DNA of 64,000 nucleotides from Lineus longissimus (taxonomy: Eukaryota; Nemertea; Pilidiophora; Heteronemertea; Lineidae). The stretch is from NCBI RefSeq assembly GCF_910592395.1, contig NC_088320.1:11096501-11160500 (forward strand), written 5' to 3'. Made by a program: the position numbers and the translations under genes. Positions 33,204 to 58,582 of the stretch are shown in pieces (the first letter of the stretch is position 1; every line of letters begins with the position of its first letter). A model generated the notes under the pieces. That model saw only the letters and a program-made list of their open reading frames with translations, made no database searches and was not told the DNA's origin.

Positions 33204-33540
33204 CATTGATTGTAACATGTAATTATGGGGGTTAATTGAACAGAAGGGATTAATTGTAAATAATTGTAAAGCGGGTGTGGAAGTCGTTGATTGTAACATG
33301 TTAATATGGGGGTTAATTGTATAGAAGGGATTAATTGTAAGTAATTGTGAAGTAAAATGATTGTAAATAAGGGGCAAATAAGATTTTAATTCAAATGTAA
33401 ATAAAGTGATTGTAATTAAAGGGGTAAATTTAATTGTAATTGTAATTAACGCGTGTAAATGAAATGATTGTAAATAATATGAAAACATTATTGTGAAGTA
33501 TGGTGTAAAGTGCACATTAAGTTTAATATAATAAATATGG
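33204..33540. repeat. Degenerate AT-rich tandem repeats
   Basis: Two similar units (ATTGATTGTAACATG...GGGGGTTAATTG) begin near 33207 and 33286. Further AATTGTAAATAA-like words run to about 33540. The segmental duplication breaks inside the first unit. Confidence 0.75.
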
Positions 33541-36659: not shown

Positions 36660-37320
36660 ATCTATGATGGGCCATCATAGATTCTATGATGGAATATACG
36701 GGTAAACTTAGCCAATTTATTTTTATATTCCATAAGTTTGAATAATGCCACTCTAACGTGTTTATGCTTTTGATACATCGTTTCTTGCCTATTTTGAGGG
36801 TCTCACTTTTAGTTAGCAAAATCGAGTGGGTATTATAGCAAAACCTTATATACTATCAGTAAGCAACCATTTTTCTGCAATTTATTATGAGAGATGAGTG
36901 TTAAGCCACCGAAGTTCTACTAGAAATGGAAGATTTTCCTCCAAACAAAGCCAGTACATTGTATTCAACTCTTGTGTAGCAAGAAATGGGGATTCCCAAA
37001 ACACCAGAGTGTCACTGGTAGAGATGAAACACCCTTCCCTGGGCCAATGGTCACGATCGTTTTCTTTTTTCACTGGTAGTGGAAACAACCTTTCGTGGGA
37101 TCCTAGCCTCAATTGTCTTTCTCCCTGGTATGATAGTGGAAACAACCTCCAGTGGCCCTGGCGTCTTTTTCTCTACCAGTATTACAAGTTGTAGAACACT
37201 CGAAGTACAACGCGTAATATTCACAACACTTTGTCAAAATATGAAGAAAACAAATTTTTGAACCTAACTTACCACTCTGGAACGAATTCCGAGAGTTTTC
37301 CATTGCTTATTCACCTTTTA

Positions 37321-38416
37321 TTAAACTCTTTTGCTATAGATCTTCGCGACTAAAGGTATATGCTGGCCCCTATTCCCCCTTGGCCAGCTAACGAATTCAC
37401 CAGCTTTGGTTGGAAGGATAGCATATGACCTGTCATGTTTGGCGGTGAAGGACATCAGCCACCTCATTTGGCCACTCCCGCTACTAATTAATTTTTTCTT
37501 AGTTTTAACGTGATCATTGTCTACGTGAACGATTTCGTACACACTTTCCATGCAAATCCTGTCTTTTATCAAATAGTTCGATGCTATTGTCAGATTTAAC
37601 TATAAGGTATTTGTTTCCAAGTAGATAGGCTTCGTTATATTCATACATGAGCCATAAGTCATTGAAGACTTCCATCTTTGTTTTGTCATCAATGAGAGTT
37701 TTGCATCGGATTGTAAAAGGTCTGAAGGTAAACGAATAAATGCATTCTCTATCACACTGGATATTTTTGAGTTCAACACTCCTTTCGTACAACTCTGCCT
37801 TTCGAGGCTGTCCTGCTGAACCCAAGTTCTTTACATGTTTAAGCTTGAAGAAAAGTCCACAGTCTTGTATCTTGAACCAGTGTAGAAATGACAGTGACAC
37901 AGCGATGGGTCCGTTCGTCTTGCTGTTGCCATATGTTCGTTTCATCGCATAAGTTAGCTCTAAGAAAACATTTTCTCCGCATGTCGCCACTCTTAACCAC
38001 CGAAAACGTTTACGCCCACTCACAAGACGCGTCTTAAATTCATTATAAGGGATTTTTAGTTTCCGTATGTTACCTTCAAGTTCAAATATGGTGATTTTAA
38101 CAGTCCTCCGTTCCGACACAAGCCAGGTAACTCCTGTATTACTTATTCCTACAAAACTATTCCTATACTCACCACATATAAGGATTAGCTCTTTTACAGT
38201 GAAATGCCTAATCAGTATATAAGAAGACATTGTCTTGTTCAGGCGATAGACATACACATTTCGAGGCGTTGAGAAGATCATATCGACAGGAGCGGCCATC
38301 GCGACTACCTGGAGTCCCTGGTGGTAATAAACTCTAGCACTATGCGCTGGAAACTCTCCTTTAATTGTGATATCTTGCTTCAAGTGATATAGATGCTGAA
38401 TCACAGAGAACAACAT
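37321..38416 (-). pseudogene. Uncharacterised protein (copy B), frameshifted, stop lost
   Basis: Copy of 23582-24636. An 8-bp deletion near 37545, between short ACT repeats, throws the frame after DKRQDLHGK. The original TGA stop is TGG here, so the second fragment would run on to 37321. The rest is highly similar. Here the first in-frame codon of MLFSVIQHL is ATG. Copy A is the intact version. Confidence 0.7.
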
Positions 38417-38739
38417 CTTTAGTGAGAGCTGCAGCCGATATGTTTAGCCGAGTCGTTCGTTTGCTGCCCAAACATTATTTGCCGTCGGTGCCACTCGGAT
38501 ATTGACGCAAACCTCAATTTATCTTGGTATTGCCTCAACCATCAAAGACAGAGAAAAATCAGTGACCCAATGTTCGGAACAAACCCAACTCCCGAGCCAT
38601 TGCTCGTTAAGATTCGGAAAATCAGTCATTGATTCTTCGGGGGAGTCAGCTGAACAACACAAATTCTGAAAGAGCATCCTCGGTAGCCTTTGTTTAAATG
38701 GTATTCTGTACGGTCTTCCGAAAAGTACTATTTCACTTA

Positions 38740-39075
38740 ATAAGCGCATTCGAAATTGGGCTGCCAGGAGAGTTTGCCGCCGGCGGAAATTTGAGCACAT
38801 AAAACATGTGCTCAAAGAGTTACACCTGCTGCCGGTAAAATGCAGGATCTCACACAAGGCGTTTCTTTTGGCATACAAGGTTTTGAACGGACCTCCACCA
38901 AAGTATTTCGATGGGATACTATGACCAGAGAACAATCCACAGCACACACGATCTTCAAACATTGTCCAACTTTCTGCTGCCGCGCAACGGTCTCCCCAAC
39001 ATATGAAACTCTCTCCAAACAATTTCAGGACGACTTTGGTAGGGTACCGGCTTTATCAGGGTTTGGAAAGGCGAA
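38740..39075 (+). pseudogene. LINE ORF2 C-terminal remnant (copy B)
   Basis: Better kept than in A. One frame reads NWAARRVCRRRKFEH, then HVLKELHLLPVKCRI, KAFLLAYK and LNGPPPKYFDGIL before a stop. This fits the CR1/L2/Rex-type pattern after RT (kinase-like HI-VL-LHWLPV-RI). Confidence 0.7.
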
Positions 39076-39588
39076 AAATAAATATTACTTTATTATTACT
39101 ATCATCGAAGAAGGGAGAAATAGGGGAAAAGGGGGAGGAAAATGATTTTATGACTTTCCTGAGTCATTTCAACTATGTCTAGATGTGTTTCGAGGCCACT
39201 AAAGCCAAGTTGCTCTTTCAAGTGCTTATCCATAAATAACCTATTTTCGGACAAGGTTGTCTCATCTTTTTATTTAAGAGGGTGATATATTATGATGTTC
39301 GTATCTCAGCCCATCATCAAGAGATCCCCATGTATCAGACATCATTTTAAAGAATAAACCAGTACCAATAGCTCAATTTCAGGAATTTCTCCCTACAGCC
39401 TCAATTTGGCAGAGTGGGTCACATATCTCAATATCATAGTGACACAGAGACAAAATAAGGACCTTCTATCCGTTAATTTAACCATAACCCGCGTATGAGG
39501 CATACATTTAGGCGGTAAGAACTGGTCTACTAAATGACTTTCAATTTAAAAAAAGGCTTGGTTCTGGGTCCTCAATATCTGAATTGTT

Positions 39589-41114
39589 TGTAACGGGAAA
39601 GCCATTCTGAGCGGTCAAGGTGTCACTAGAGACAGGGACAAAAGCACAATCAGGAAGACATTTCTGAATTCCTCAGGCAGGGACTTTCAAAAGGGATCAG
39701 GGCCATGGAGAATCGGAGGATATGACTCAGGAAGATGAAGACTCTACTGTTCCACAAAGGACAGACACTTATATGTGATTATATATTTTAATGTCAACAC
39801 TTGACTTCAACTATTTACAACTATTTACAACTACACAATTACAGTGACACAACATGGAACTCTTTAAACACAGCAATCAGCTCTTGGTCTGATTAAAACA
39901 CTCCCAAAACAACTCAGCAGTCAGCTCTTGGTCTGATTAAAACACTCTCCAAACAATCTCATATTTACAGTAAATGGTTGATAGAAGGATATCGACTCAT
40001 GTTGATATCTTCGCCGTCTATAAGACGGACCATGAGTTCAATTAACTCGTCCAAAAACTCAACTAGATCTTCTAGTTCTATAAAAGTGCCAATGATGATG
40101 ATATCATCTGGATATATGTGCTCATTGTTTATCTCCCCAGAAATACCAATAGATTAGATAGGATTGCTCAAATATAACCCTCTGGGTTCAGGAGCTGACT
40201 CAAGTCAATTTGGAGTTGGTACACCAAAAAGATCAAAGCTACTGCCTTTGCTTTGCCTATAGATTAATCAAAGTACATTCATCCTCATGGATAACCAGTG
40301 CTGCTATTAGCAAGCTACACAATGCATAAACATGTGCGTGAGGAATCTGACAGAATGTAAGACAGTACTAACCTGACTTAAATGATAATTCTCAGTGTAC
40401 TAGTAAGAGTTCTACTAGGAGAACCGCTAGTTGGCTAATTGGGCCTGGTGTGCAGGCAATCTCATTGTTTTGGGGCTTACATGAGCTTTTATACCCCCCT
40501 ACGGGGTCCTCCCACGGGCTATCCCGTCCCCAGATAAATTACGATTCTTGAAAGATGCTCAATGTTTTGAAAGATGCACCAACTTTAGGCACAATTTGTA
40601 ACCACACTTCAAAATCCAGAGCTTTGAAATCGACATCCCCAGATGCTATAAACATAGTTTTACCACATGAAACATTTCAAAACACTTTTATGCTCAAAAT
40701 ATCCTGCTTTTGAACCACTTTAAAACTTACAACACGCGGAAAACAAGGGTCCAGCTTCCAAACAAATTGATGAGAATGACGTCATCAAACATGGCGGACA
40801 AGTTTACAAAAGTCCGAAATTGCACCCGTAAAAACACTTATTACAAATACACAGTTACTTATAAACTTACCAGGAAGCTCTAGATAAATTGGTCCTAAGG
40901 AGACAAAGGTCCCTCCAAAGTTTGATGATCTAACACCACACAGTTTTGTGTAAAATTGTCTTCAAACACGAAAATCTGCTCCGGTAAAAATCTTCTAGGT
41001 ACACATAAACTGCTCACCCGGAGAACGAGTACTGACGGCACAGCGGTTGTATGTACAATGCGGACTCAAACCGGTTCCAAGATGAACGAAGCAGCTAAAG
41101 GTTAATTTGTTACA
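39589..41114. mobile_element. 1526-bp insertion in copy B, LTR-like ends
   Basis: Edges are set by comparison with copy A (GAATT/TTTAATGG). The insert starts TGTAACGGG and ends TTGTTACA, i.e. TG...CA with a 6-bp TGTAAC/GTTACA inversion, as in many LTRs. It has no ORF above 60 codons. A direct repeat of TCAGCTCTTGGTCTGATTAA lies near 39880 and 39921. A solo LTR is the best reading; the target duplication is blurred by a T run. A large MITE is the alternative. Confidence 0.65.
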
Positions 41115-42723
41115 TTTTAATGGAAAAAAATTGGAGTGGTTCCATCTAAACTACCTCAATATGTCAAAATTAGAATTCAGCGTAAGAGGTTGCTACATGC
41201 ACTTAACTCACTTTTGACCAAATTTTCGATTCGGCGACTCATGGTTCTCACCGCCTCAATTGCTGATGCTTTCGTGTTGTTCCTAAAGTAAAGTTCAATC
41301 GGGGTTAATCGACTTCCCAGGATTGTAGCTGACACAAGGTCGAGTTACAGTTTGTAACCGCCGCCGTATACGTACAGACGCACACAGCCACGACGAGTAA
41401 CAGCACAATATGGCTTAGGATCTAATAGACTGCAAGCCATACATGCCATAATCACATTGAAACCTTAGACATTAGATATTACGAGTATTTGCTATGGAAA
41501 TGTGCTAACTCTATGTGTTAGTGTTAAAGCAATGTCATGCAAGTTAATTCGGAGTGAACACTAGAATAAAAAAACTGTTAATTTTGAATTAACCTTTGGT
41601 TGTCCCAGAACTTTGCAAAGTGATCTAATCTCATGGTTAACAGCGGGCTTATTCTTGTTAATAGTGTTAACCCAGAGTTTACCGAAAGATTTAACGTGGT
41701 CATTGATAGGACACAAACTAACAGTTAATCTTTAACCTTTTTGCCCGGAGAAAGCGTTTGAAAGTTGCAACAGATTCGATGTTGCGCCCAGATTGACGCT
41801 GCGACCAGTGATGACACAACCAACGGGTTTCTGCACTTCACGTTTAATATAGGAACTAAAATAGAATAAACAGGAAACATACTAAGTAACTGGTAGAAAT
41901 TTAACAACTATGAACAAGTAAACACACCCAGCGGCAAGCATGCAATTAGCTTAACTAAATTACTAATTAATTAATTACCCGGATGGAGCTCCATACACCA
42001 CACAGTACTTTGACCCGCCCATACATTTACAATACCAGACGGTCATACCGGACAACACCCTGTCCTCCCACATGTAAATTACCACTGTACACTTCCACAG
42101 GCCTATTACACAAAGATCTATACAAAGCTGGCTATCTACAACCAAACTAATACAAACTGGCTTATCACACCAAACTAATACAAACTGGCTAATCACACCA
42201 AACTAACTAAACAACCCAACTGAATACGTGTAACTACTTTGAAACTGGTTTCACTGAACCTAGCGATATCCACCAAGTGTACATTGTATATTACGAAAGG
42301 TTTGGCACACTTACCCTAAGCAAATTCACACCTCATTCCTTCTCCTCATTCACACCAGACAGGAAGTGTTCAGAAAGCCACTGGGCAACATCCTACAACA
42401 CAACCATGTAAATGTAATTCCACACTGATATAATTCGATTTCGTTTGATTTCGTTTGATTTCTGCCGGTGTGGTATACCACAAGCAAACCGCTCGACCCG
42501 CAGCCTAAAGGTTTTCCAAGCCAATGACCACTACTCGGGTGTGGTCTGATATATATCTCTTGAAATCAATCCCGTGCGGTTTTGTGTATGAAACCTCCGA
42601 AAATCAGAAATCAAACCATGTAAACCATGGTAACCGAGTGAGCCCATTAAAAATCATACAGATTCCAGACCAAATTTCCCGCTATTTTTAAAAAAGGACC
42701 GACTGAATCTGGATAGTGAGTTC

Positions 42724-43068
42724 TTGCCTGATGCCGTAATAAGATCCAGCCCCACCAATCATCAGTCTGGAAAGTGCAGATATATCTCTGGGCTACTACT
42801 CGAGAACCTCCTTGGACATGGAGGACCAGAAAAATGGAATACCTCTCGATCAATAATCTACCACGTATACCATTGGGAGAAACCAATGGTGTTTTACACT
42901 GTCACTTGGTTGCTCAAAAAGCTACACGAACCTTCTTCTGGTATACCCGTGAACCCATTTGACGACACGCCACCACCCTCTCCATACACGTGGCCTTCTT
43001 TTCACTCAGATGACAGTGAAACCGTGCATCAACGTGTAGCGCGGCTACTGTTAAACAGTCCGGATTGA
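42724..43068 (+). CDS. Uncharacterised 114-codon ORF (copy B), doubtful
   Basis: Counterpart of 27984-28328 with four amino-acid changes and no frame damage. No domain; weak evidence for coding. Confidence 0.2.
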   Translation: MPDAVIRSSPTNHQSGKCRYISGLLLENLLGHGGPEKWNTSRSIIYHVYHWEKPMVFYTVTWLLKKLHEPSSGIPVNPFDDTPPPSPYTWPSFHSDDSETVHQRVARLLLNSPD

Positions 43069-43699
43069 TACACAATAGAGCACACGCTAAAAGAGAAATA
43101 GCATCGTATGTGCCTCCATCTGGCTGGGCGATGCCGATGCCAGAGACAACTATAGTGAACTCTGCACTGTGTGCAAGCGCCGCCATGTCTACCAAAGCCA
43201 CCGAACATTAAAAAAACTAATAAATCCAGCGATCACCTAGCACTGTAAGGTAACGCTGTTAAACGTCATAATTGATCTGTTTGTCTGCAGCAAGATGTCT
43301 TAACATGCCATATTCAATATTTTGAGACCACTGCGCTGATGATTCAGGGTTATCTAAGGCACATCGGATCGGATCTTCGCAGTCCAGGTGTGATGAATCC
43401 CATTTATTGTGAGTCAATTGAGCAATTTAATCTAAGATCAGAATCATGTAACCATAACCATGGTCATAATGTTATCCAAGATCATAGTGATGTAATATGG
43501 AATCAGTTAGAATCAGGAATGAACATTCATGTAGGACTGGACAATAGTGCAGATCAATGACTTTACAATGACTTAACAATGACTTGACAATGGCGAGTGG
43601 TTGGGTGATCTATGGTTGTTGGTGTGTGCTTTTGGCGAGGACTCAGAAAGACTCCAAGGAAAGCAGTTGGTTATGCTTGCCTTGTGATTTGAATTGATT

Positions 43700-44190
43700 G
43701 GAGCTCCAGAATCCCTTTTCGGGGAAGCTGTTTATCGAATCCGGACTTTTCGGTTCGGGAATTATGATCGCCTGGCGTTGGTGCTGAATGTGTCGAATTG
43801 GAGCTCCAGAATCCCTTTTCGGGGAAGCTGTTTATCGAATCCGGACTTTTCGGTTCGGGAATTATGATCGCCTGGCGTTGGTGCCGAATGTGTCGAATTG
43901 GAGCTCCAGAATCCCTTTTCGGGGAAGCTGTTTATCGAATCTGGACTTTTCGGTTCGGGAATTATGATCGCCTGGCGTTGGTGCTGAATGTGTCGAATTG
44001 GAGCTCCAGAATCCCTTTTCGGGGAAGCTGTTTATCGAATCCGGACTTTTCGGTTCGGGAATTATGATCGCCTGGCGTTAGTGCCGAATGTGTCGAATTG
44101 GAGCTCCAGAATCCCTTTTCGGGGAAGCTGTTTATCGAATCCGGACTTTTCGGTTCGGGAATTATGATCGCCTGGCGTCGGTGCTGAATG
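43700..44190. repeat. 100-bp minisatellite, five units (copy B)
   Basis: Units start at 43700, 43800, 43900, 44000 and 44100, the same unit as at 28999. Two units fewer than copy A. Confidence 0.97.
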
Positions 44191-44716
44191 GAGTCTTCGC
44201 TGCAGCTGTGAAACGCACACATATACGTATTCGAATCGGAACGCCTAAATTCCGTATTCTTATTGGGAACGGATAGCCTAAGTCCGTATTCTCATAATTG
44301 CCTTTTAACCCTTTACACCTCTGTGTCGCCATATCTGGGCCCTTACTCGGAACTGGACATTTTCTCAGTTATACTTGGAATTCATCTTTGGAACTGGACC
44401 TTTTTCTCAGTTACCCTGTGAACATTGCCGTGTGAACTTTGCCCTTGTGAACTGAAGGGACTGAACTGAACATTGCTACACTTTGTACACGAACTCTCAT
44501 GACTAATATTTATATGCTTTATTTCAGCAGATGGCTATAAAAAATTTTTACATAATTTTCTCTTATAATAAACTCTTTGTTATTTTGATATAGGTGTTCA
44601 GCTGTTTTAACAGAGAGGTACCAGTGCCTTAAAAGCCGCTACGTCACACCAGGCTATTGTTCATATTATCAATATAGATTAATCTACACTGGATATTATA
44701 TGTATGCACCACAATC

Positions 44717-44971
44717 ATGGAGAGTCTGGCTGAAATTAAAAAAAGAGCGTTCCGCCTGACAAAAATATGTGTTTACTGTAACAAAACGATATCTCAAGTC
44801 ATTTATCATCCTCACACATCAAACGAATTCAGTGATTTTGATATAATGGTACGTTTGACATCAGGACAGTTGTGTCTTACATTTCAAATGACAACTTCAC
44901 AAAACTGCATCGAATATAGACATCAAGACCCCTACCTGGCTGACGGTGGTTGCAAAGCAGAAGCAGTGTAA
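44717..44971 (+). CDS. Small uncharacterised ORF, 84 codons (copy B), doubtful
   Basis: Counterpart of 30202-30456 with one amino-acid change. No domain. Confidence 0.2.
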   Translation: MESLAEIKKRAFRLTKICVYCNKTISQVIYHPHTSNEFSDFDIMVRLTSGQLCLTFQMTTSQNCIEYRHQDPYLADGGCKAEAV

Positions 44972-46574
44972 GGTTAGTCACAAGAGGTACTAAGAGCTGG
45001 ACAGCATCATCCTGCAGGACCGTGCTGAAAGCAACCGACAAAGAAGCTCTCTTCGGAGAATTTGCTGGAATGATCAAGTTCCAAGAGCACACAGGACCTA
45101 TCGCCAATACTTCACCGTCATCGCTCGCTCACGGGGTAGAATGATAATGATGAGGAACCGACGATATTTACTTTTTTAGCTCTCACTCTCATGAAATACA
45201 GAATTGGTTTCGAACTGAAACAGTAGCACAATACAATCTAAGGAACAATAACAGTTGTCAAACGGCGTGATCCTGACCGTTATGGATAGCATGGGTAAGA
45301 TCGATTCTTATGACTGATGATAGCTGCTGGCTTAATGATTTTATTTATTGTTCTCCGTTACAAAACCAAACCTTAAAGGAACTCTATAGGCAGTAGCTAG
45401 GTCGGCAAGATAAAATCACAAGAAATCGCCAATAGGAGTCTCTCACATCTCACAGTACGTCAAAACTATTCGTGCTTGTAGGAGGCATATATTTAGTGGT
45501 GAATCTAACATGACCCAGAGCCCTTACCTGCTTACCGTGTATATAGTCACCTGAAGAGAGTCAATTTGACCCGCCTGCTCCTGCCTATAGTCCCCCTTTA
45601 AGCAAAACGTATATAAGTGACAACACAAACACATTAGATGAATAGTTCATCGTATGGTTGGTTTGAGACGAAAAAAACATGATATGTAATATTAAGTAAG
45701 TGTGCTGAGGGGGGCAAATTTGTTAGTTATCAACTAGTAGTATTAATACAGAGAACAGTATCCCAGTTAACTCGGAAAATTAGTTATGCCGAGAACGACA
45801 GAGGGTCCCAAAAATTTGAAAGGTGTCCAAAATATGTAATATGTCAGTGGTGGTGTTGGTGGAACCACTCTCCCTCGAGCCATTAAAGAGGTTGAATAGC
45901 GCCTCCAGAAGCAAGCAACAGCGCCACCCGTAGCAGAAATAAGAACTGCTTAGTGACGTAATGGTTTCCATATACGGCATCTCATTTGCATATTTTTACA
46001 ACCTTATTTACTACGAGTTATAAATATGCCAGTAGCACGTGGATCATGCCGGGCGGCGCTGTCAGGTGTTTCCACTATGGGTTACATAATCGGCTACAAA
46101 GAGGCCAGTGTTCTAGTAAATGAAGTTAGCAATGATAGCGAAAGAATGTTAGTGTATGTTACGCAGTCAATAGCGATAGTAGTGAGTTGGAGAGAGGAGA
46201 AAATGGAAAATGGAGAGAATTGCTAGCAGAAAGTCAAGTTTTGAATTACAGTAGTTAGTAACCATAAACTGATGATCCCACGCCATGCAAACATTTCAAA
46301 TCATGCTAGGTGTTCAGTGGTAGGCCTCATAATCAAGGACAACAATCACAACCAATCAGAATAACAACTCGTTTAACCCTCTTTGTAAAACATGGCAATT
46401 ATAAGGCCATGATGATCTTTCTGTTACCACCACAGCCACGGTGACCGAAGGCCTGATCCAAGACTATCTATTGACTGAAGTCATTCTAAATACTAGTTGA
46501 CGGAACATGTGTACTGCATAGTCACTAGTGTTTTAAATATGATTCACCTTTCACCATGTCCTTTCTCTTTCAAG

Positions 46575-46697
46575 GATAAAATAACATCGCTGCTGAATAC
46601 GCACGGCTTAGATTCTACAGATCCGCACATTATCCAGGCGTGCTACATTCACAAGAAACATAGGTTTACTCAGTACGGGAGTGACCTGAAGAGAAAG
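46575..46697 (+). pseudogene. Exon of the unrecognised spliced gene (copy B)
   Basis: Same splice sites as 32069-32191; one Ser to Ile change. Intact by itself, but its partner exon is broken. Confidence 0.5.
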
Positions 46698-47538
46698 GTA
46701 ATTCCTCTAATTTGTATGCATCTGCCTGGGTTCATCCAGAATACAGTTACCTTGTCTTTCGGCCAAGCTATAGCAATCGAAATCAATAAACGAAATTCAC
46801 ACAGTATGGAACATACACATGATTAACATTGAGTGTTCACCCCGGGGTGTTCACTAAACGATCTTAAGTTATTAATTAACGGCCCCAAAACTTATGAGAA
46901 TCAATTATTAGAGTCCCAGGGTAACTTACATATAGGTCGCTATTAGCCTATTAGCAGAGGTGTATTAAGTGCTTAAGTCGCTTGACCAGTCTTATGTAAC
47001 CTGGTACAATCACATGCACCTCAACATCAACAGTTTCCACTCAACTGACAATATACTGCTCATCGTGATTATGTTGAATAGGATTGTCTGATGAGTGCTG
47101 TCTGCGTTGTTGGGCTGGAGTTTCGATATTATTCACCCTGCCCATTAACATAAATCTAAACTTATCCGATATAAACATATCTGATCTAGATTGATCTGTT
47201 CTGCTTGATATATTTACTGTAAGTGTATATTTCTATTCAACAGCTAAATGGAAAGCCCAAGGGAGTACATCCCATGGCCATGCCGGTCGGTACATGATAC
47301 ATGGTTCATCCAACAGTGTGATATGTGCTTGTCATGGACCTGCCATAGAGTTACGATATATGTTTCATTACATGTATTCAGTTAGCAGCAAACATGTATC
47401 TGCAGATTGCAAGTGCACCCCTCATGTACATGGAGATGGCCAAAATTAGACTATTCATCACTACTTTATTTTGACCAGACAAACAGCCATACCCTGTGAT
47501 ATTGCATTCTTATTAATCGCTCGCCATTTGCATTGCAG

Positions 47539-47694
47539 CGCTCATTTGCCTACAGCGTCAAGCTGTTCCGTCGAGATGAGGGCCCAGCAGAGCCAGAGGA
47601 GAAAGACTTTTGGCGTGGCTATACAAATTACAGGTGCCTAGCTGTGGGTAGCCCCGACAGCTGGGCCAAGCTGTAGGAGATAGACGATAAGCGG
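47539..47694 (+). pseudogene. Broken next exon of the unrecognised spliced gene (copy B)
   Basis: Acceptor kept at 47538. TAG at 47674-47676 replaces a leucine codon of copy A, and the donor GT is changed to AT at 47695-47696. An Asp to Gly change also lies inside. The copy cannot make the A-type product. Confidence 0.55.
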
Positions 47695-47765
47695 ATGGGG
47701 AAAGTCATTGATTGTAACATGTAATTATGGGGGTTAATTGAACAGAAGGGATTAATTGTAAATAT

Positions 47766-48192
47766 AGCGGGAGTTTTTGACGTGATAGGCATCGCCGCTC
47801 CAGTCATCTTGACTGCAAAGATCTGGTTACAAGAGTTGTGGAAGGAGAAATATCAATGGGATGAAGACCTCCCTGAGCCTGTAAAACAAAAATGGGCAAC
47901 GTGGTTTAAAGACTTGCAGAGGCTGAAAGCATACAAAATCGAACGATGCCTAACCCCACCCGAGTCTGAAGGTCAACCAATATTAGTCATCTTCGGTGAT
48001 GCGTCTGAAAACGGATTCGGCTGCGTCGCGTACGTAAGATGGAAAACTTCCGACAGCTATGAAACTCGGTTCGTGATGGCAAAATCTAGGGTCGCGCCGC
48101 TAAAACCGCTCACAATACCGCGATTAGAATTACAAGCAGCAGTCTTGGCCAGCCATTTGAAAGAAACCATTATTGCGGAAATGCGATTTTGA
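47766..48192 (+). pseudogene. BEL/Pao pol, post-RT and RNase H start
   Basis: Open from the junction with no true start. GVFDVIGIAAPVILTAKIWL matches the VYDPLG-LAPV-LKAK-LQ-LW block that follows RT in BEL/Pao pol. RNase H begins with FGDASENGFGCVAYVR, then IPRLELQAAVLA. Frame is lost near 48180 and continues in the next fragment. Confidence 0.85.
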
Positions 48193-49951
48193 TGTAGAAA
48201 ATACTGTTCTGTTTTCTGATTCTATGATAGTTTTAGCATGGATAAAGAGTGAAGCCAGAACCTTTAACACATTCGTATCCAACCGCATTGGCGAAATCCA
48301 GATGAAGACGGATGTGAAAGGTTGGCGGCACTGTCCTAGCGAACTGAACATTGCCGATGACGTCAGCAGAGGGTGCTCCGTGGAAAACTTGGCTGAATCT
48401 TGGAAGTACGGGCCACCTTTTTTGAAATTGCCCATAAGTGAGTGGCCTACCGTGGAAGACACAGACTGTCAGGATGAAAGTGAGTTAAAATCCGCTCGCA
48501 TGATCATGAATGTATCCGTAGCCGCGCCGATACTTGCAAACATGAATAAATTCTCATCTCAGTCACGCGCAATCAGAGTTACAGCGCACATAATGCAGTT
48601 CATACAAAACTTCTGCACAAAGTGGAAATTCAAATGTCAGCCGCGTTCAGGACCATTGTCAGTAGAAGAAGTTGAAAATGCGGAGAAAAAACTTCTCATT
48701 CATGCACAATCTTCGCTTCATCTGTTGCTTGGAAAACATGAGCTGGCCAGCCTTTCACCATTTGTGGACAGTGAAGGAATCATTAGGGTAGGCGGACGAG
48801 TAGGAAAGGCTATGGTTAGCTATGATACACAACATCCTGCTCTCTTGCCAAACAATCACTGGTATTCAAATCTCATTGTTCACAGGGCACATCAATATGG
48901 ACATTCTGGTGTAGCAGCGACTGCGGCGAAAGTAAGGAGAAAGTACTGGATTATTGGGGTGACTAGGCTGGCGAAGACGGTCAAGTATCGATGTGTCTTC
49001 TGTCGCAAGATGACAGCCGAGTCAGAAATGCAGATCATGGCAGAACTTCCAGTGGAGCGCTTACAGCCAATGACACCTCCATTCAAGAATACCGCATTGG
49101 ATCTCTTCGGCCCATTCAAGATTAGGATAACCAGAAACAAACATGACAAGGCATACGGAGTATTATTCACCTGTCTAAATGTGCGAGCAGTCTACTTGGA
49201 TATAACCGTTGACTACTCAACCATGGAGTTCCTTCAGGTCCTACGGCGCTTCTTCTCAATCCGAGGTACCCCTCAGACCATCCTCAGCGATCGTGGTCCC
49301 CAACTGGTAGGTTCCGCTCCACAAGTGAAAGAATGGTGCTGCGAGCGAGGGACAAGATGGCAGTTCCTGACCCCCACAGCTGCGCATCATAACGGGTGTG
49401 CCGAAGCTCTCGTCAAATCCTGTAAAACCGCGCTCAAACACGCAATTGGAGATCAGGTTTTGACAGCATTTGAGCTACAGACCGTACTATTTGAGGTAGC
49501 TAACCTTGTAAATGAACGACCAATCGGGCGTTGCTCAACGGATCCGGACGACGGTGCGTATATCTGCCCAAATGATACGTTATTAGGACGAGCCTCAGCC
49601 ACTGTACCCCAAGGGCCATTCCAGGAGACGAACAATCCAAGACATCGTGTTGAGTTTTGCCAACAGATAGTGAAGTCCTTCTGGAATCGTTGGTATAGAG
49701 ACGTCTTTCCGTCATTGATGCCTCGCAGAAAATGGCAAACTACAAGAAGGGACGTGTGTGAATGGGACTTCGTTCTCATCAAGGAAACAAATCCAATCCG
49801 CGGTACATGGAAAACCGGGCGCGTTGTGAAAGTTTATAAGGGATCGGATGGGCGCGTGCGAAACTTAACAGTAAAAACTGCGTCCAGTGTATATGACCGC
49901 CCAATCACGAAAATCGTGGTTTTGTATCCTGCAGAGGGTTGGGGGAGATGA
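48173..49951 (+). pseudogene. BEL/Pao RNase H end and integrase
   Basis: About 590 codons without a stop. RNase H continues with FSDSMIVLAWI and NIADDVSRG. The zinc finger region is HRAHQYGHSGVA...CVFC. The DDE integrase has Asp in ALDLFGPF, Asp in LSDRGPQLVGS and Glu in HHNGCAEALV. The tail (WNRWYRDVFPSLMPR, VLIKETNPIRGTWKTGRV) is the DUF5641-like end of BEL/Pao pol. All three acidic residues are kept. The part itself looks young; the loss is at the 5' side and at the one frame break. Confidence 0.87.
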
Positions 49952-49978
49952 ATAGATTATGTCATCGCCGGGGGAGAG

Positions 49979-50648
49979 TGTTTCGCTGTAAAAGTCGAAA
50001 CGGAAATGGACTATATTATTTAAACAGTATTTGAAAAGCCCGCGTTAAAAGTTAGGTCTTTAGGCGCGAATTACGCATTGGACAAAGGGTCGCGTGATCC
50101 GAGCGCATGACCTGTAATTTTGCACCGTCACGGGATTAGCCCATTCAAGAGACATTTTAACTTAAGGCGTAAAAGTGGACGGATCGCGAACAAGTCCGGG
50201 GCAAACATTTTATCTTATCAAAAAACAGGAAAAACAAACTATATGTGGATTCGTAAGTTTCAATTTTATCCTATTTAGACACTCATTAAATCACTTGTTA
50301 ATTGGTGTAGGTTTTCGGTGATACAGACATTTATTTCACTTATTAGGTTTCATGGCCAGGCTAGGTTGCCAAAATATAATGCTAGATAAGTTGGATTCAG
50401 TCAGTTATTTCTATCACCAGCGTCATGTAAATAGGCATTGAAACCAGGTGCGTCAAAATCATCAGGATTATACCTTTAGTTTTGTTCGTTAAAATTCTGT
50501 GATAATTTGCAATGTTTTATGTTTATGGAAATGGTTTATTCACTGGTTTTAAATGGCAATTTTTCTGTGTACTAAAATGTATAATTTATTCCAGGTTTCG
50601 AATAAAATCTTTATATCGAAGAACCACATATTCCTTCTCCGTCCTTCA
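49979..50648 (+). repeat. 3' LTR of the BEL/Pao element (approximate)
   Basis: Starts TGTTTCGCTG after the purine tract GGGGGAGAG. Contains AATAAAATC near 50601. The proposed end TCCTTCA at 50648 is set by the start of exon-like sequence of the SAM gene and is uncertain; no second LTR exists here to confirm it. Confidence 0.6.
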
Positions 50649-50679
50649 GTGTCCTGGCCGGACACGTCACCAAGTACCT
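50649..50679 (-). pseudogene. SAM-domain gene, exon 8 stub cut by the BEL LTR
   Basis: An acceptor TGTTTCTTGCAG lies just right of 50679, in phase with exon 7. Only about 31 bases follow before LTR sequence. The intron from exon 7 would be only 44 bp, so this call is weak; the rest of the gene is missing. Confidence 0.35.
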
Positions 50680-50723
50680 CTGCAAGAAACAACATGTCTC
50701 ATTAGACTCATAGTCATACATAC

Positions 50724-50917
50724 CATTCCTCTCTCCAAAAGCCTTGGAAATGATGCCAAAATATCCTTCGCTTTCAACTCTTTGTTCTCACAGATCTCAC
50801 GGTGACGATTTGTTGCGGTTTTAGCCATCAGGTCCGAAACTTTGGATGCCGGTTCAATGTTGTGTTTCAGCCATGCTGTCATTTCCTTATACTCTTTTTC
50901 GGGTAGAATCTGCCATT
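50724..50917 (-). CDS. SAM-domain gene, exon 7
   Basis: 194 bp. Acceptor CTTCATCAG, donor GTATGT; takes two bases to finish a codon from exon 6. Peptide EWQILPEKEYKEMTAWLKHN, then LMAKTATNRHREI and ILASFPRLLERGM. The W-x-x-L...WLKHN...T...R...IL-FPRL pattern is that of SAMD3-like proteins of fish, cnidarians and other animals. Confidence 0.72.
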
Positions 50918-51261
50918 CTGATGAAGATAAACAGAGACTTGAATAAAAAAACACAAATATAATTGTTTGAGAAAAATTTGTTCTGGTGTAGTGGCTAGCA
51001 GATATCACCCTGGATGAAACTATGGCCTAACTGCACTTTTACCAGCAATGTTAACCACTGATTGTGAGGCTCCTAATCACCCCATATTGACTTGATTAAA
51101 TCAGGACATGTATCCCTCATGTACACCTTAGGTACATGTAGATCTCAGTGACTAGCACCACCAACCGAACGAGGTGTGATGGTGATCTAAAACAACTTTT
51201 CTACATTAACCCACAAACACGTCTCAAATATCAAAGCCTTGGACAATATTATTGTGATTAC

Positions 51262-51421
51262 CTGCAACAGACAACACCTCTTCAGCAGGGACTGTTTCAG
51301 GTAATTGGACCCTTTTCTTAACCATCTTCAGTTTTGCCTCCTCTTTGTGAACATTGTATATACGGTCATTGATAAAGCCCTTTGCAGGTCGACCACCTCG
51401 AGCCCTTTGGTAAAATTCTTC
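51262..51421 (-). CDS. SAM-domain gene, exon 6
   Basis: 160 bp. Acceptor CATCTTTCAG, donor GTAATC; enters in phase 0, leaves in phase 1. Peptide EEFYQRARGGRPAKGFIND, then RIYNVHKEEAKLK, matching the G-x-x-x-R-(I/L)-x-N-x-R/H segment of the family. Confidence 0.72.
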
Positions 51422-51620
51422 CTGAAAGATGACGAAGAAAAAAAATGGCTTCATGCTGATGCTTCTGCGGACACATTTTTTCTCCTCCCCAGGCGCTCCT
51501 CGGCTGTGATATCAAGAACCGCTGGCGCTGCGAAGAAAACTAGCAAACTTAGTTTTACATAGAAACAATGACACCTTGTGATCAAGGAATTGTTTGGTTG
51601 TGCCTCTCCGTCATACTTAC

Positions 51621-51705
51621 AAAGCCCTGTCCCTTCGGATTCCTCAGACACGGTATGACTGTGATAATCACAATGGCAAGTTCCTCCGTGTCCTCTGTTT
51701 TGGGA
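51621..51705 (-). CDS. SAM-domain gene, exon 5
   Basis: 85 bp. Acceptor AATTTCCAG, donor GTAAGTATG; completes a TTT codon begun in exon 4. Peptide contains ITVIPCLRNPKGQGF, the FPCLRDPKG-GYE-like motif of the family. Confidence 0.75.
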
Positions 51706-51997
51706 CTGGAAATTAAGCACACGAATTTCACTCCTTACATGTAAATGCAATACACCAACACACTACTTATACTTATTAGTAAGGAGATGATTCACACTGA
51801 TACACTAAAAAATAAATGTAGTATCAAGGATGTATACATCCTTGGTAGTATGTTCTCTAAAATCACTTTAAGAACCCCCCCCCCCCCTAATATCAGTTTT
51901 CGAAATAACAAAGTTTCGAAATAACAAGTGCTGCGGCTGCTGGCCTAGCCAAATCAAGCAAACACATACACATACACATTTTTTGAAGGATACTTAC

Positions 51998-52146
51998 AAT
52001 TTTCCGCATTTTTCAAATAAAAAACCAGTTGCTATTTTCACAAGTCTTTTCCTCAACACTGTTGGGGCGAACCCAAGCTTCTGTACATCCGCTAACAAAG
52101 ATCTACCACCATTCTGGCTGCATAGGAAAGTCTTAAAATCATGAAA
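51998..52146 (-). CDS. SAM-domain gene, exon 4
   Basis: 149 bp. Acceptor TTTATTGCAG, donor GTAAGTATC; phase 0 in, phase 2 out. Peptide FHDFKTFLCSQNGGRSLL, then KLGFAPTVLRKRLVKIATGF, an L-x-x-x-x-R-x-x-L-V-x-I helix like the family's region before the FPCL motif. Confidence 0.7.
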
Positions 52147-52420
52147 CTGCAATAAAGATGGCAAAGCTCTTCTTAATTGAAAATATACATCTTATAATGA
52201 TGATGAAATTTGTCTGTAATAAATACATAAGTCATAGCAAAACTGACATAATTTGTTGATTGGACAGTTGGAAATGCTGACCTGTTCAATTTGTAATGTT
52301 ACCCATACGCAACTTCTCATGGCAAATTATGTGTATCAATTGAAGAATGAACCTTGAAGCAGTACATTGAATCATGGAGGTATTATACCTCCATGATTGA
52401 ATTGAAATAAAAATATTCAC

Positions 52421-52618
52421 CTTAGTTGATACTGGATGTGCACATATTTTACTGCCACTGGGAACTGAACTTGGTGAGAGATTTAAAAGCGTAGAATGCT
52501 GGACTGGACTACAATCTGATTCTGAATGAAAAGTTGAGCTAGATTCTATTGGGACGTGTATGTTATCATTTTCTGTGTCATCGCTGGTGCCAGTCATATC
52601 GGTTGGTGGAGATGCATC
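52421..52618 (-). CDS. SAM-domain gene, exon 3 (linker)
   Basis: 198 bp, phase 0 at both ends. Acceptor TTTATTTTCAG, donor GTGAAT. Encodes a Ser/Asp-rich disordered linker (DASPPTDMTGTSDDTEND), as lies between the SAM domain and the conserved C-terminal half in this family. Confidence 0.65.
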
Positions 52619-53004
52619 CTGAAAATAAATTTAAAGGTACAATAACATACAATAACTTCAGAAAACTTTGCATTTCACTTCAATACTTCACACCTTCAAT
52701 GTGATAAATTGTTCTTGTATTTTCGAATTTTTTTTCTCGCAAGTACACACTAATGACTAAAATCTCTGAACATACCAACTTATCTATGCCTCGGAACAAT
52801 GTAACGCAAACTGTCATGTTCATCAAACGACTTGATGAGGTGAAAGGGGTGATGGTCAAGCAATTCATTGACTGTGATGCACAGAAATTCGTCTCCTTCC
52901 CGAACAGCATAGGCATGATATCTGTCTTCAAACCACAGGGTTTCCCAGACTTGAATCAACAAATATACTAGAGTCTGGTCATCAATGAATACCTGCTCTA
53001 TTTT

Positions 53005-54933
53005 TCAATAGAGAGGATTTCCTGATTCCTTATCACAGTCCACAGAAACCATCTCGTTGGCTCTGTACTCTATGCCATGGTACCAAGCGAATTTAGCAGA
53101 AAAGACTTCAGAGTCAACAGGACAGCCAATTGCCTCTGCTATTAGACTGTGATGGGGCTCAAAGTGATCCAGGGGCTGGAGCAAACCCTTCCCACTTTCC
53201 AATGGCTTGAACTCGAAAAGCTCCTTCCTCATGAGGGCATCAGACAACGTCATCTGATGGCGTCTGGCCATGGTTTTACAAATATTTTTAAAGTTGCAGG
53301 TAACTTGGGCAACTTGCTTGAAGAATGCATGTTTTCCCTCAAATCGCATTGATGAAAAGTGTTTAAGAGGTCCAATGGCTCGGATTACTGCAGGGTAATG
53401 TAACATATGATGGTGCTTTGGAAGGAGGTGATTGTCTGGGAAGGTTGTGAAGAAATGGTCATGGTGTTCTTGAATTAGTCGCTGGAGGTAGTAGGTCTCT
53501 TCTTCACTCACTTTTGGGGCAAAGATGATGTCCATGCAGGAAAGCAGGAGACGTATGACTTGCAGGTGATCATTACATGTATCTTCAGGAACAAGGTCGC
53601 CAATGAGAATCAGGAGATGCCTGATTAGAAAATAGGCCTGCTCTGCTTTTTGACCAGTTGCAGAAGTTGAACGATTCAGGCTTTGCTCAGTTATCACAGA
53701 GGGTTTGTTTGACGACTCAGGAAATCCATAATCAAATGACACTATTCGGTCGTTGATCACATCGAGAGTGAGCACACCTTCAGTGATGATCGCCTTCAAG
53801 ACCAGTTTTACCTCTATTAGGCCAACCCCCTCAAGAATGTCATGCATAATGTCAAAGACATGGTTATCAGTGACATGATATCCTACTAAGTCATTCAGCG
53901 GACACATCCTCTTTACTCCGGTTCTACTAACATCATCAACGGCTATGTCTCTATCATATGTCTCAACTGTCCTAATCAGGGAGTCGTCTTCAGCAGTTGC
54001 AGTGTGAGCATCATCTCTCGGCATCGAACATCTGCGGCAAGGAAAGTTAGCTGTAAATCCCTCAGCAAAACCTAGCATGCCATGCAGCCCCAAGTTATCA
54101 CCTGTTGTCTGGCCTAAAACCACACGCACTTTTGTTCCATCATCACACAACAAACCCTCGGATTCTAGCACTTTCAGATCATCTACAATTGGATTCAATA
54201 TTGCATTAAAACCATAATGCTTTATGTCTTTTGAGAGGGCAACAGCAAGCAAGAACATATTCTTTAAACTGGACTGGTGTACTGAGTGAACATATTTCAG
54301 GGTGAAGTAGAACAAACCCAGTTTATGGGTGCCAGCTTTGGGAGAAAAAGGGTTTGTAGTTTCTAACTCATCAAAATACAGTAAAATATTTATGGTCTCA
54401 GGATCGCACAGGGCTGGGTTGGATTTGTAGTAACTGCCATCTTTAAAATCTTCAAGAATCCCAGGCGCATGTTCCCTGGTCTTGTACTGTGGGATAGCAT
54501 CCAGCAAATCAGCATCAAGGACTTCTAGCAACAGGTCTCCGATAGGCACATACTCAAATGTGTCACGCTTTTGGCGTTGGAGGACAACACCAGAATGAGG
54601 GTCTGGCTGGGGATTAAAGGCAACTCCAAGCGGAACAGAAACTGGAGGAATGAAAGTGCCGAGGTTTAAAAAATATTTGTTTTGAAGCCATCCAGTTTCT
54701 AAACCGGTAAAAGGTATCCGACTCTCTTCAAAATCATTCATTAGGTCTGCCAAATCATCATCATTCCTCATCCCATTCCCGAGGTCTTCCACTACCTTCT
54801 TCGTTTTCTCTTTCAATGCTTCAATAATTTCAGAAAACATTTCGGAAGTGCATTCAATGACAGTGTTCAAAGTAGAGAGAGGCAGGTTTGCCTTGGCCTT
54901 CAGTTTACTAATGAACGATGAAGCTATTGACAT
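53005..54933 (-). CDS. CACTA-like DDE transposase (ORF2), inside intron 2 of the SAM gene
   Basis: 642 residues from a true ATG, no internal stop. Family blocks: LLYFDELETTNPF near 184-196 with Asp188 as a candidate catalytic residue, TTGDNLGLHGMLGF near 277, a Cys pair NFPCRRC at 297-302, DIMHDILEG at 361-369, and MRFEGKHAFFK toward the C-terminus. The D-x-M-H motif is shared with TNP2/Plavaka-type CACTA transposases, and the whole layout with animal CACTA/EnSpm-like proteins. The exact superfamily rests on recollection. It lies between exons 2 and 3 of the SAM-domain gene on the same strand. Upstream C2H2 ORF overlaps it by 10 bp in another frame. The stop is about 390 bp before exon 3. Confidence 0.72.
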   Translation of the reverse strand: MSIASSFISKLKAKANLPLSTLNTVIECTSEMFSEIIEALKEKTKKVVEDLGNGMRNDDDLADLMNDFEESRIPFTGLETGWLQNKYFLNLGTFIPPVSVPLGVAFNPQPDPHSGVVLQRQKRDTFEYVPIGDLLLEVLDADLLDAIPQYKTREHAPGILEDFKDGSYYKSNPALCDPETINILLYFDELETTNPFSPKAGTHKLGLFYFTLKYVHSVHQSSLKNMFLLAVALSKDIKHYGFNAILNPIVDDLKVLESEGLLCDDGTKVRVVLGQTTGDNLGLHGMLGFAEGFTANFPCRRCSMPRDDAHTATAEDDSLIRTVETYDRDIAVDDVSRTGVKRMCPLNDLVGYHVTDNHVFDIMHDILEGVGLIEVKLVLKAIITEGVLTLDVINDRIVSFDYGFPESSNKPSVITEQSLNRSTSATGQKAEQAYFLIRHLLILIGDLVPEDTCNDHLQVIRLLLSCMDIIFAPKVSEEETYYLQRLIQEHHDHFFTTFPDNHLLPKHHHMLHYPAVIRAIGPLKHFSSMRFEGKHAFFKQVAQVTCNFKNICKTMARRHQMTLSDALMRKELFEFKPLESGKGLLQPLDHFEPHHSLIAEAIGCPVDSEVFSAKFAWYHGIEYRANEMVSVDCDKESGNPLY

Positions 54934-55349
54934 AACATCAAGCTCAGCATGACGACTTTGTCCTGAAAATCATTTACACCATCAATTTCAACATCATCTC
55001 CAGAATGCATCATGTCTTCATTTTCACTATTATAATCAAACACCTCTCCGGGCACATCATTTATAAATGTATCATTGTTGCTGTCTTGTTCAAGAACATG
55101 TTTCATCAAATGCCTTTTGTAAGGCCAAACAGACTGAAAGGTCCGTTGGCATCCATTCTGTGCACAAACAAAATAATTTCCAGCATAGGTTATTGCATGA
55201 ATGGTTCTCAAATGAAAGAACAAGGAGTGGAAGTCCCCTTTAATGTTTTTGGAACAAACAAAACACATGAACTGCCTGGACTGCTCAATTACTACTGAAT
55301 TATCCTTGACCTTTCCTTTAAACTCTTGCAGAATTAAGATGAATCTCAC
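54924..55349 (-). CDS. C2H2 zinc-finger ORF (ORF1) of the CACTA-like element
   Basis: Open for 141 codons. The first codon of the frame is GTG; the first ATG sits inside the first finger, so translation probably enters from upstream by splicing. Two C2H2-like modules are visible: CFVCSKN...HLRTIH and CAQNGCQRTFQSVWPYKRH. An acidic tail follows (NSENEDMMHSGDDVEIDG). In related animal proteins such fingers precede the DDE domain in one chain; here a frame change near 54945-54965 separates them, either a mutation or two ORFs joined by splicing. It begins 8 bp from the exon 2 edge, leaving no room for its own promoter or terminal repeat. Confidence 0.65.
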   Translation of the reverse strand: MRFILILQEFKGKVKDNSVVIEQSRQFMCFVCSKNIKGDFHSLFFHLRTIHAITYAGNYFVCAQNGCQRTFQSVWPYKRHLMKHVLEQDSNNDTFINDVPGEVFDYNSENEDMMHSGDDVEIDGVNDFQDKVVMLSLMLCQ

Positions 55350-55356
55350 ATCTTAC

Positions 55357-55481
55357 CGATACAGCATTCCTGTTCAATGACAGCTTCTGTTTGAATCGAA
55401 GTTGTGTTCCAATCCTTGGAATTAACTCCTTCAAAGTATCCTCGTCCAAGAGATGAAAACATTCCTCGTCAATGCCATGTT
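55357..55481 (-). CDS. SAM-domain gene, exon 2
   Basis: 125 bp. Acceptor TTTTTTTCCTTCAG, donor GTAAGATG. Completes a GAA codon from exon 1, then HGIDEECFHLLDEDTLKELI and PRIGTQLRFKQKL. This is the second half of a SAM domain: an L-L-x-x-D-L-x-E-L-I-P-x-x-G motif, then a basic final helix. SAM domains mediate self-association. Ends in phase 0, matching exon 3. Confidence 0.8.
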
Positions 55482-55739
55482 CTGAAGGAAAAAAAGGAGC
55501 AGAGAAGCTTTTACTGATTGTGTCTAGAAAAATATTTTATTATACATGTATATTACAAAAACACTGATACGCCTATGTAAAAACACCTTTCATTAGACTT
55601 AGCGTGACAGCTCATCTCGAAAATAGTCATCCAGCACCCATTATACCAACATGTGACCATATGGTGAAATCTTTATTTTTTGGATACTTTTTTAGGTCTA
55701 AATTTTTTTTCAAAACAATTAAAAAAAAGGAAGTGACTA

Positions 55740-56265
55740 TTTGGCAAGCCCGGCTTACCAAACAGCGCCTTTTTTCTGCCCTAGATGGAGAGCCGAACTC
55801 ATGCATATTCAACCATCCAGGAGCTCATTATCATTCGTGGCAACACGGTCAGCAACACTGGAGTTACAGTGAAACGCCTTTAGAAATGCACACTAATGCA
55901 TTTAACATGCTTATCAGTTAAATCACGTTTATGACTTTTTTTGTAAATCCATACAGTCATGTACATGTACATGCTTCTTCATGGATTATTGACCAAAACC
56001 CGAGTTTAGTAACAGAAATTGAATCGAGAGCGGGAAGTCGGCCATTGTTAAAATATGCGCATATAAATTCGAATATGACGTCACTGCTCTCTGATTGGTC
56101 AACATGTTGTAACCTCTCCGGCTCGCCAAACAGGGTAGTATTTTTGCCCTGTTTGGCAAGCCCGGCTTGCCGAACAGAGTTGATTTTTAGTGCTGTTTGG
56201 CAAGCGGCTCTCCAAGCAGGGCAAAAAAACATGCCTGTTCGGCGAGCCGCTTGCCAAATAGACCC
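55740..56265. repeat. Cluster of palindromes, GTTTGGCAAGCCCGGCTTGCC type
   Basis: Short perfect or near-perfect inverted repeats recur: TTTGGCAAGCCCGGCTTACC at 55740, GGCTCGCCAAACAGGG near 56120, GTTTGGCAAGCCCGGCTTGC at 56151, GTTTGGCAAGCGGC near 56195, and TTCGGCGAGCCGCTTGCC near 56238. They lie in intron 1 of the SAM gene. Confidence 0.8.
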
Positions 56266-56279
56266 GGCCTAAAAAAAAA

Positions 56280-58226
56280 ACCAATGGCTCTTTAGTACAT
56301 GTAGTACATGGATGCCTGCGGGTATAATTCATTACCATTCACTTACCTGCACATGTCTGGAGAATGGAAAAACACAATTTAAAAAAAAAGTCAATAGTGT
56401 GAGTTGTACACTCAATTCAAAGATAAAGTTGATTTTGGCAGGGCAGGGCAAGAAAATAGGACAATCACTCGAGTACAGTTACAGTAGCATTATTCATATG
56501 TCGTGAATGTAGGAAGGACAGGCAGCAACAAGTCAAAGGTTCACTGTGACACTGACAGTTCTACAGACTGTCATGACTGTTGCAGTCAAATCCCAATTTT
56601 ACACCACATTTTATTTTGATTGCAGAGCTAACAAAATTGGCCCTTTTAACATTTATCATTATTTCAAATCCAATTGTAAATCACTTATGGTCTGAGCGGC
56701 TTGAGAAATCTACTGGTACTGGTATTTAGATGCTCTAAAAAGTGAGCATATCTTCATTTCTAAAAGACAAGATTCTCTTTGTTTGAGTGCCTAAAGTACA
56801 AAAAAACGTTACCGGTATACATGCTTCAAGTTTCATAACTATTCAGCAAGTCAGCTGATTGTCATGCATGTAGTTACATTCAAATTCCTGTTGCCAGGCC
56901 TAAAAAAACAGGCCAAGGACCTTCTGTTCAGTGAACAATTACATTACCAGCCAAGCCTTTATCTACATGATTGACATCGAATCGAAATACATGAATACCA
57001 CCTCAGTCGTCATTAATAAAACATGAAATATTTATCTGCTTTCCTTGATAGTCAACATAAAGTCACTAGTTTTCTAGCAAGGTCACGAAATTAGTTGCCA
57101 CTGATGGTGCTGCAGACCAACTTCAACAAATCATACAACAAGACATGTATGACTGCAAAAATGACCTCTTTAGACTATAAAAAACATGCTGGAACATTTA
57201 CATTGCTGTCGAGCACAAACCCAATGAACGACAAGAGTTGGGTTTTATGCTTCGTACACGCAATGTACACATTTCTCATAGTGACCAGACACCGACAGCC
57301 ACATGTAGACCAAAGAGACATACTAGTATCATGTGTATGACAATCAATCACTGATCAGCAGAATGAGAATGATCAATCTCCAATGACAATGTCATTGATA
57401 TTGATAATCGAATACATGCAAATATACACGCATTCGTCGGATTCGAATGCGGTCATCCAGTTTCAACCAAGGAGTCAGTCAAAAAGGAAACTTTCTAGTG
57501 CTTCATAGCACCGTAGACTGAGTAATGTTCTTAATCCACTTTTATGCAGTAGAGATGTGGAAAAACAGCAGCAGTGACTTAGTCAGGAAGCAAAATCGGT
57601 TCACTCGTTGAGCCAGATGATGGCAGTCGCCATGATGGATCAACAAAATCAATAACGAACGATGCGCCACCTTTGTATAATTTTCAAGTAACATGGCGCG
57701 AATATTCAAAATAAGAAGATAAACTGGCATGCACGTGGACTAAATGTGCGCCTTCTACCCAGTCGTATGAAACACAGCTTCAGGCCTACGCTTTGATGCA
57801 ACATGTTTCGCAGTCATTCCATGCAAAAAAACCCCCAGCAACTAAGTTATCTTCCCCCCGAAAAAACGGACACAGATTATAGCTGCGTCTGCGGAAAAAC
57901 TGAGAGAAAGCGCAACTTCGAACAGAATTATAAACGTCGGCCTAGCCTATATTTCATGTATTTGAGGCCGAAAGTGATATAATTCAATAGCCTAATGCAT
58001 TGCGGACTAAAGATTTATATTAGTTTCACTCTAAGAATGTGCATAGGCCTACATATCTTGATGAGAAAAAAGTGTACGTGATTCGGACGGCCTGTGGCTG
58101 TGGCATGTGTGGTGCGCGGCGCGGACGGCGGGCGTTCAGAGTGCGCCTACCAGAAAACGGCCTAAAATAACATTTTAAACTACGAAACGTAAAAAAATGG
58201 TAATCTAGTGGTGCTATGTGACTTAC
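56280..58226. other. Intron 1 of the SAM-domain gene
   Basis: No gene seen. CpG content rises near 58080-58140 towards exon 1. A 10-bp stretch near 56349-56358 is bounded by acceptor-like and donor-like signals but would break the frame. Confidence 0.45.
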
Positions 58227-58293
58227 CGTTGAAGACTGATATTAATTCCTCCATACCCCACTCCTTCAGAATCACCTCGGTGAAGTTTTCCAT
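58227..58293 (-). CDS. SAM-domain gene, exon 1
   Basis: ATG at 58293-58291 followed by MENFTEVILKEWGMEELISV and a strong donor GTAAGTCA, phase 1. This is the first helix pair of a SAM domain (E-x-x-L-K-E-W-G-(M/L)-E-E-L) as at the very start of SAMD3-like proteins. Together the seven exons give about 330 residues with all six junction phases agreeing. Confidence 0.78.
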
Positions 58294-58582
58294 TTTGCCC
58301 GGAATCAAGCTTCTAATTGAAGCGAGGATAAAATGGCCGCTGATCACTTTAACGTCTGCCAAATTACGCGGTCCTGATTGGTGGACGGTTTTACTAATTA
58401 AATAGTTATTTCTAGATTGCGCACATCTGATTGGTAAGGCTTGTTAACTTATTATTTCAACTAACTTTATTTACTACTTTTCCCTCAGTACAACTAATTA
58501 ATAGTTATGTTCACTACTTAAATGGTTATTTTGGCTTTACTAATCAAATTAGTTAAAAATTTACCACTTAATTTTAAGAGTG
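58294..58582. promoter_or_regulatory. Presumed promoter region of the SAM-domain/transposase locus
   Basis: Directly upstream of exon 1 on the minus strand. No TATA box recognised. It may also hold the element's end, but no CACTA-type terminus could be identified. Confidence 0.3.

Follow-up and report, generated by a model that had tools for sequence, protein, structure and literature searches.

In maize, the CACTA-type transposon En/Spm has an accessory gene, tnpA, of 11 exons, with the large tnpD open reading frame (ORF) in its intron 1; TnpA recognises the subterminal repeats and both proteins are required, according to the sections on this element in PMC2613891. An En/Spm-like splicing pattern was reported in 2006 for an animal element, Schistosoma SmTRC1, whose spliced forms omit the transposase ORF (most expressed sequence tags) while tandem ORFs occur in one clone, as the relevant parts of that report describe (PMC1636069). 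With these two precedents, the nested architecture is therefore already a known kind. Here we describe a nested element in the nemertean Lineus longissimus, found in a stretch of 64,000 nucleotides (the window; C13:11096501-11160500 of the genome searched, G000, 391 Mb in 30 contigs), in which a gene for a SAM-domain protein carries a C2H2-DDE transposase in an intron. The protein spliced from the window is that of NCBI LOC135498188, with complete identity over 326 amino acids (aa). It is close to certain that the SAM gene and the nested transposase are one CACTA-type element; that a single pre-mRNA serves both products is likely, judging from gene models, and a helper role of the SAM protein in transposition is our best guess, made by analogy with TnpA.

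Results

Searching G000 with the transposase gave 70 matches, and 15 transposase loci were inspected with their flanks: the window, six near copies (cA-cF) and L027-L034. Among the near copies, cE shares its flanks with the window region, of which it is a segmental duplicate; the other five are dispersed. The 11 inspected loci with identity of at least 53% represent three families plus duplicates rather than 11 independent cases; by our count, eight further places at this identity among the 70 matches lie outside the inspected set.

Seven minus-strand exons of the window join in phase with AG/GT borders, and intron 2 holds overlapping C2H2 (55352-54924) and DDE (54969-53005) open frames on the same strand (Table 1), just as the sequence-only reading had described. 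Compared with the sibling P0004 (836 aa, 99% identical), the two frames are one ORF whose frame shifts near 54969 and meets a stop at 53005. A SAM fold was recovered for the SAM-gene protein. In cA and cB the SAM gene has ten exons and an intact frame, 502 aa long in cA, where exons 8-10 were located by eye from their frames and from likeness to P0008. These three exons are absent from the window, where the 3' part of cA matches only 52 bp at the cut and the terminal repeat. Fragments of SAM exon 10 are also repeated after the SAM gene at two loci (L028, 1-1170; L030, 9314-9981).

The right limit of homology in the window, 58582, reads 5'-CACTCTTAAAATTAAG and is common to cA, cC and cD, each with a different flank; homology to cB stops 5 bp before this limit, and cF is broken earlier. 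The left limit, 50670, is a cut in the window copy, beyond which cA, cB, cD and cF run on together, and comparison of cA with cB and cF gave the true 3' end, common to all three. Neither end falls within the SAM gene, and cA (C4:6552071-6562293), 10,223 bp from CACTCTTAAAATTAAGT to an inverted copy of CACTCTTAAAATTAAGT, encloses all ten SAM exons and the transposase. The proposal that SAM gene and transposase are one element is thereby borne out, and the terminal inverted repeats have the 5'-CAC...GTG-3' form of CACTA/EnSpm elements. As for a target duplication, cA, the only copy with both ends, has TA on either side, and a 3-bp duplication does not fit there. Since cA and cB are 99.4% identical over 10.2 kb, we infer that the family moved recently.

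A retroelement integrase ORF (48161-50669, plus strand; DUF5641, Integrase_H2C2, rve), probably of a BEL/Pao-type element as we take it, lies beside the cut; its right flank, ending ...CA, adjoins the transposon at 50670.

CACTC 5' ends were also found in L027, L028, L030 and L031, about 300 bp ahead of SAM exon 1. The motif TAGTWA, picked on cA itself, occurs 20 times per 640 terminal bp of cA and 11 times per 9323 interior bp; on other 5' ends it reached 6 (L027) and 7 (L028) per 300 bp, the maxima of 300 Markov shuffles each being 5 and 4. Subterminal repeats, as in CACTA/EnSpm elements, are thus present at the cA ends and at the 5' ends of L027 and L028. CCAAT-like boxes were seen by eye in the 5' subterminal region of three families. 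The insertion in intron 1 (Table 1) was not found in the copies aligned across its site (cA, cB, cD and the segmental duplicate cE).

Table 1. Features of the element copy in the window
Feature	Position	Strand	Basis
CACTA-type element copy, 5' end intact, 3' end cut off	50670..58582	-	limits of homology to dispersed copies; siblings about 2.9 kb longer at 3' end
5' terminal repeat CACTCTTAAAATTAAGT	58566..58582	-	17 bp perfect against cA 3' end; imperfect to about 47 bp, 58536-58582
5' subterminal region with TAGTWA-type repeats; putative promoter and 5' UTR (untranslated region) of SAM gene	58294..58582	-	TAGTWA enrichment, CCAAT-like boxes
SAM gene exon 1, begins with ATG	58227..58293	-	P0002
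Insertion of about 543 bp in intron 1 of SAM gene, with inverted internal repeats	55728..56269	.	copy alignment
SAM gene exon 2, remainder of SAM domain	55357..55481	-	P0002
C2H2-DDE transposase, pseudogene	52783..55289	-	tblastn of P0004; span matches its 836-aa ORF
SAM gene exon 3	52421..52618	-	P0002
SAM gene exon 4	51998..52146	-	P0002
SAM gene exon 5	51621..51705	-	P0002
SAM gene exon 6	51262..51421	-	P0002
SAM gene exon 7, last kept in window	50724..50917	-	in-phase exon joins

The transposase ORF is whole in two of the seven copies compared, window included (cA and cB). In cA it has its own ATG 67 bp beyond exon 2, and in L027, L028 and L029 an ATG stands directly ahead of the first finger. 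Residues D307, D398, C418/C421, H627/H631 and E651 are invariant in 52 sequences, the triad being assigned by motif. The CACTA/EnSpm DDE domain is defined, in the pertinent section of PMC12730594, by C(2)C and H(3-4)H between the second D and the E, and this is the pattern of the transposase family across the 52 sequences. The Tnp2 domain (Pfam Transposase_21) was detected in seven of the 52 relatives at E <=0.01 (best 2e-06), which we counted as a Tnp2 relationship, and is precomputed in P0010 and P0022.

The order exon 1, exon 2, transposase, SAM 3' exons is kept in three diverged families, so that the SAM exons surround other transposase copies as had been predicted. At identity of at least 53%, all 11 loci have exon 2 immediately ahead of the transposase, in the same orientation; exon 1 is present upstream in ten (all but cF), and ten (all but cC) have one or more later SAM exons downstream. 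The nesting is that of En/Spm: a transposase ORF in an accessory-gene intron, on the same strand and within one pair of ends.

Gene models connect the two products. The isoforms of NCBI gene LOC135489123 include the transposase (X1, P0007) and a SAM-gene protein (X3, P0123); P0007 maps to L027:5297-2748 at 100%, and P0123 matches exon 2 (100%) and exon 7 (98.7%) of L027 on either side of it. Four further Lineus models mix the genes: P0003 runs from SAM exon 2 into the transposase, P0118 from the transposase into SAM exons 4-6 and P0008 from the transposase into exons 8-10, and P0140 joins exon 2, a finger piece and exons 9-10. P0124, a contiguous SAM exon 3-10 frame, and the transposase P0006 both come from a 5550-base contig, presumably the same one, as would be expected of a transcript keeping intron 2. 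At the level of annotation, both products are thus predicted to come from one gene.

The transposase has 135 relatives in the search, and ten of the best 120 of these carry SAM-gene sequence: P0003, P0008 and P0118 from Lineus, P0067 (Orchesella), P0084 and P0115 (Folsomia), P0074, P0033 (Diadema; weak, E 0.02), P0058 (Apostichopus) and P0060 (Merluccius). P0026 has a weak 30-residue match to the SAM gene, and these searches found no SAM-gene sequence in the other 109 of the best 120. Those 109 fit most models holding the transposase ORF alone, yet they lend no support. Proteins related to the SAM protein are also found in Lingula, Lytechinus, Holothuria and Apostichopus. The name SAMD3 came with the sequence-only reading, and the resemblance is putative; no protein so named was among the 26 SAM-protein matches (8000 candidates scored), and the SAM domain is what SAMD3-like proteins and the SAM-gene protein have in common. 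With linked pieces in springtails, echinoderms and a fish, some puzzling animal SAM-domain genes may therefore be transposon parts.

Discussion

We read the locus as a decayed copy of an animal CACTA/EnSpm-type element with two products, probably from one pre-mRNA, and a putative TnpA-like SAM helper, and give this reading as a whole a probability of about 85%. A promoter in the 5' subterminal region would drive a single pre-mRNA. Splicing of exon 2 to exon 3 would give the SAM protein, while keeping intron 2, or splicing into it, would give the transposase mRNA, whose 3' part would consist of SAM exons. The enzyme, with two C2H2 fingers, a RAG1-like DDE core and a BAH-like C-terminus, would cut at the CACT ends, and by analogy with TnpA the SAM protein may gather on the subterminal TAGTWA repeats and link copies to each other through its SAM domain.

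Several observations weigh against this reading. The isoforms are NCBI predictions, not reads, and the SAM-isoform models P0123 and P0125 begin in intron 1 codons, not in exon 1, and skip exon 3 (P0123) or exons 3-7; neither model is therefore evidence that the exon 1 promoter is used. P0004 itself matched none of the Pfam families, the transposase ratio of nonsynonymous to synonymous substitution (dN/dS) is 0.41 in the close pair L028/L030 (17 changes), two dN/dS comparisons of SAM exon 10 are saturated, and the TA duplication is that of one copy, cA. Of the four distant loci (30-37% identity), two match the SAM tail weakly on the downstream side (L029, domain E 0.0004, and L032, 0.002, from a small search). 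L032 also shows CACTC 1.5 kb upstream of the transposase match with no recognisable SAM exon between; in L033 a weak SAM match falls on the wrong side, and the flanks of L034 show no SAM match.

L029 (G000:C19:10860200-10870199; 33% transposase identity) also carries a protein kinase ORF (minus strand, about 6550-5426; PF00069, E 3.8e-15) directly upstream of the transposase ATG, the place of SAM exon 2 in other families, and a SAM-exon-1-like piece (weak, E 1.4) further upstream of the kinase ORF.

Among other explanations, the SAM gene may be a host gene captured as a passenger, with no part in transposition. The window copy, whose SAM exons are open and transposase broken, indicates that copies persist without both being intact, and the helper role is proposed by analogy; but the SAM gene has been kept, with low dN/dS and in the same order, in three Lineus families, and it is linked to the transposase in gene models of other phyla, so we think a passenger unlikely. 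Less probable still, and in our view a long shot, is that the host has co-opted LOC135498188 from the transposon as a gene of its own: its SAM frame is open while the transposase is broken, and the NCBI model ends in an extra exon of 19 aa at 42392-42336. However, the copy has lost exons 8-10 and with them the conserved C-terminal domain, and the extra exon is part of a repeated block found again near 27236. An insertion of an independent transposon into intron 2 of a host SAM gene can practically be dismissed. The transposase does lie wholly within one intron, as an inserted element with lost ends would, but cA already contradicts this reading: the common copy ends lie outside the SAM gene. 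Moreover, the SAM exons accompany the transposase on several chromosomes, and the nesting is identical in three diverged families.

The element encoding both proteins resembles maize En/Spm in its CACT ends, subterminal repeats and same-strand transposase ORF in an accessory-gene intron, and in being one unit with two products, as predicted isoforms suggest for Lineus; by the corresponding sections of PMC2613891, it differs in using intron 2 of ten exons instead of intron 1 of eleven tnpA exons. The SAM domain of the accessory protein is a further difference from En/Spm. The duplication, 2-bp TA in the single copy cA, contrasts with the 3-bp duplication of plant elements given in parts of PMC4158355 and PMC2613891. 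SmTRC1 is likewise an animal CACTA-type element with alternative splicing (predicted in Lineus) and a 2-bp duplication (TA at the single copy cA in Lineus), but it begins CCC, unlike the CACT ends in Lineus, and its parts outside Transposase_21 are called not detectably conserved in the sections describing them, whereas the Lineus partner is conserved and named; sections 6 and 8 of that description do not mention a SAM domain (PMC1636069). A conserved candidate accessory protein can now be named for animal CACTA elements, SmTRC1 being the one animal case that we found described, and no SAM-domain partner of CACTA elements was found in the literature searched.

Relative to RAG1/Transib transposases, the Lineus enzyme adds two N-terminal C2H2 fingers, a BAH-like C-terminus and the SAM-domain partner gene. 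In the animal element ProtoRAG, a RAG1-fold enzyme has a partner that the element itself encodes. It may be, though we are more doubtful than confident, that a widespread lineage of animal CACTA elements with RAG1-like transposases has the SAM protein as its essential, conserved second subunit, and that many multi-copy animal SAM genes, SAMD3-like ones included, are such subunits or their tamed descendants. If so, the element would be another such case besides ProtoRAG. An animal RAG1-fold transposase with a partner gene may also help in considering how RAG1 came to be joined with RAG2. Two ideas become testable: a single pre-mRNA for enzyme and helper in an animal element, as in maize En/Spm, and unexplained animal SAM-domain genes as transposon parts.

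Other features of the window

A block of about 10-11 kb is duplicated within the window (22860-33262 and 36662-47764, pieces 94-98% identical), and the area is duplicated again near C13:11517445-11544300. At 33894-35336 on the minus strand lies a transposase with DDE_Tnp_1_7 (E 3.6e-72), which we take to be of PiggyBac type. An ORF at 1935-3173 on the plus strand has an ALOG domain (E 3.4e-16) and a weak Phage_integrase match, and is perhaps, we presume, part of a DIRS-like element.
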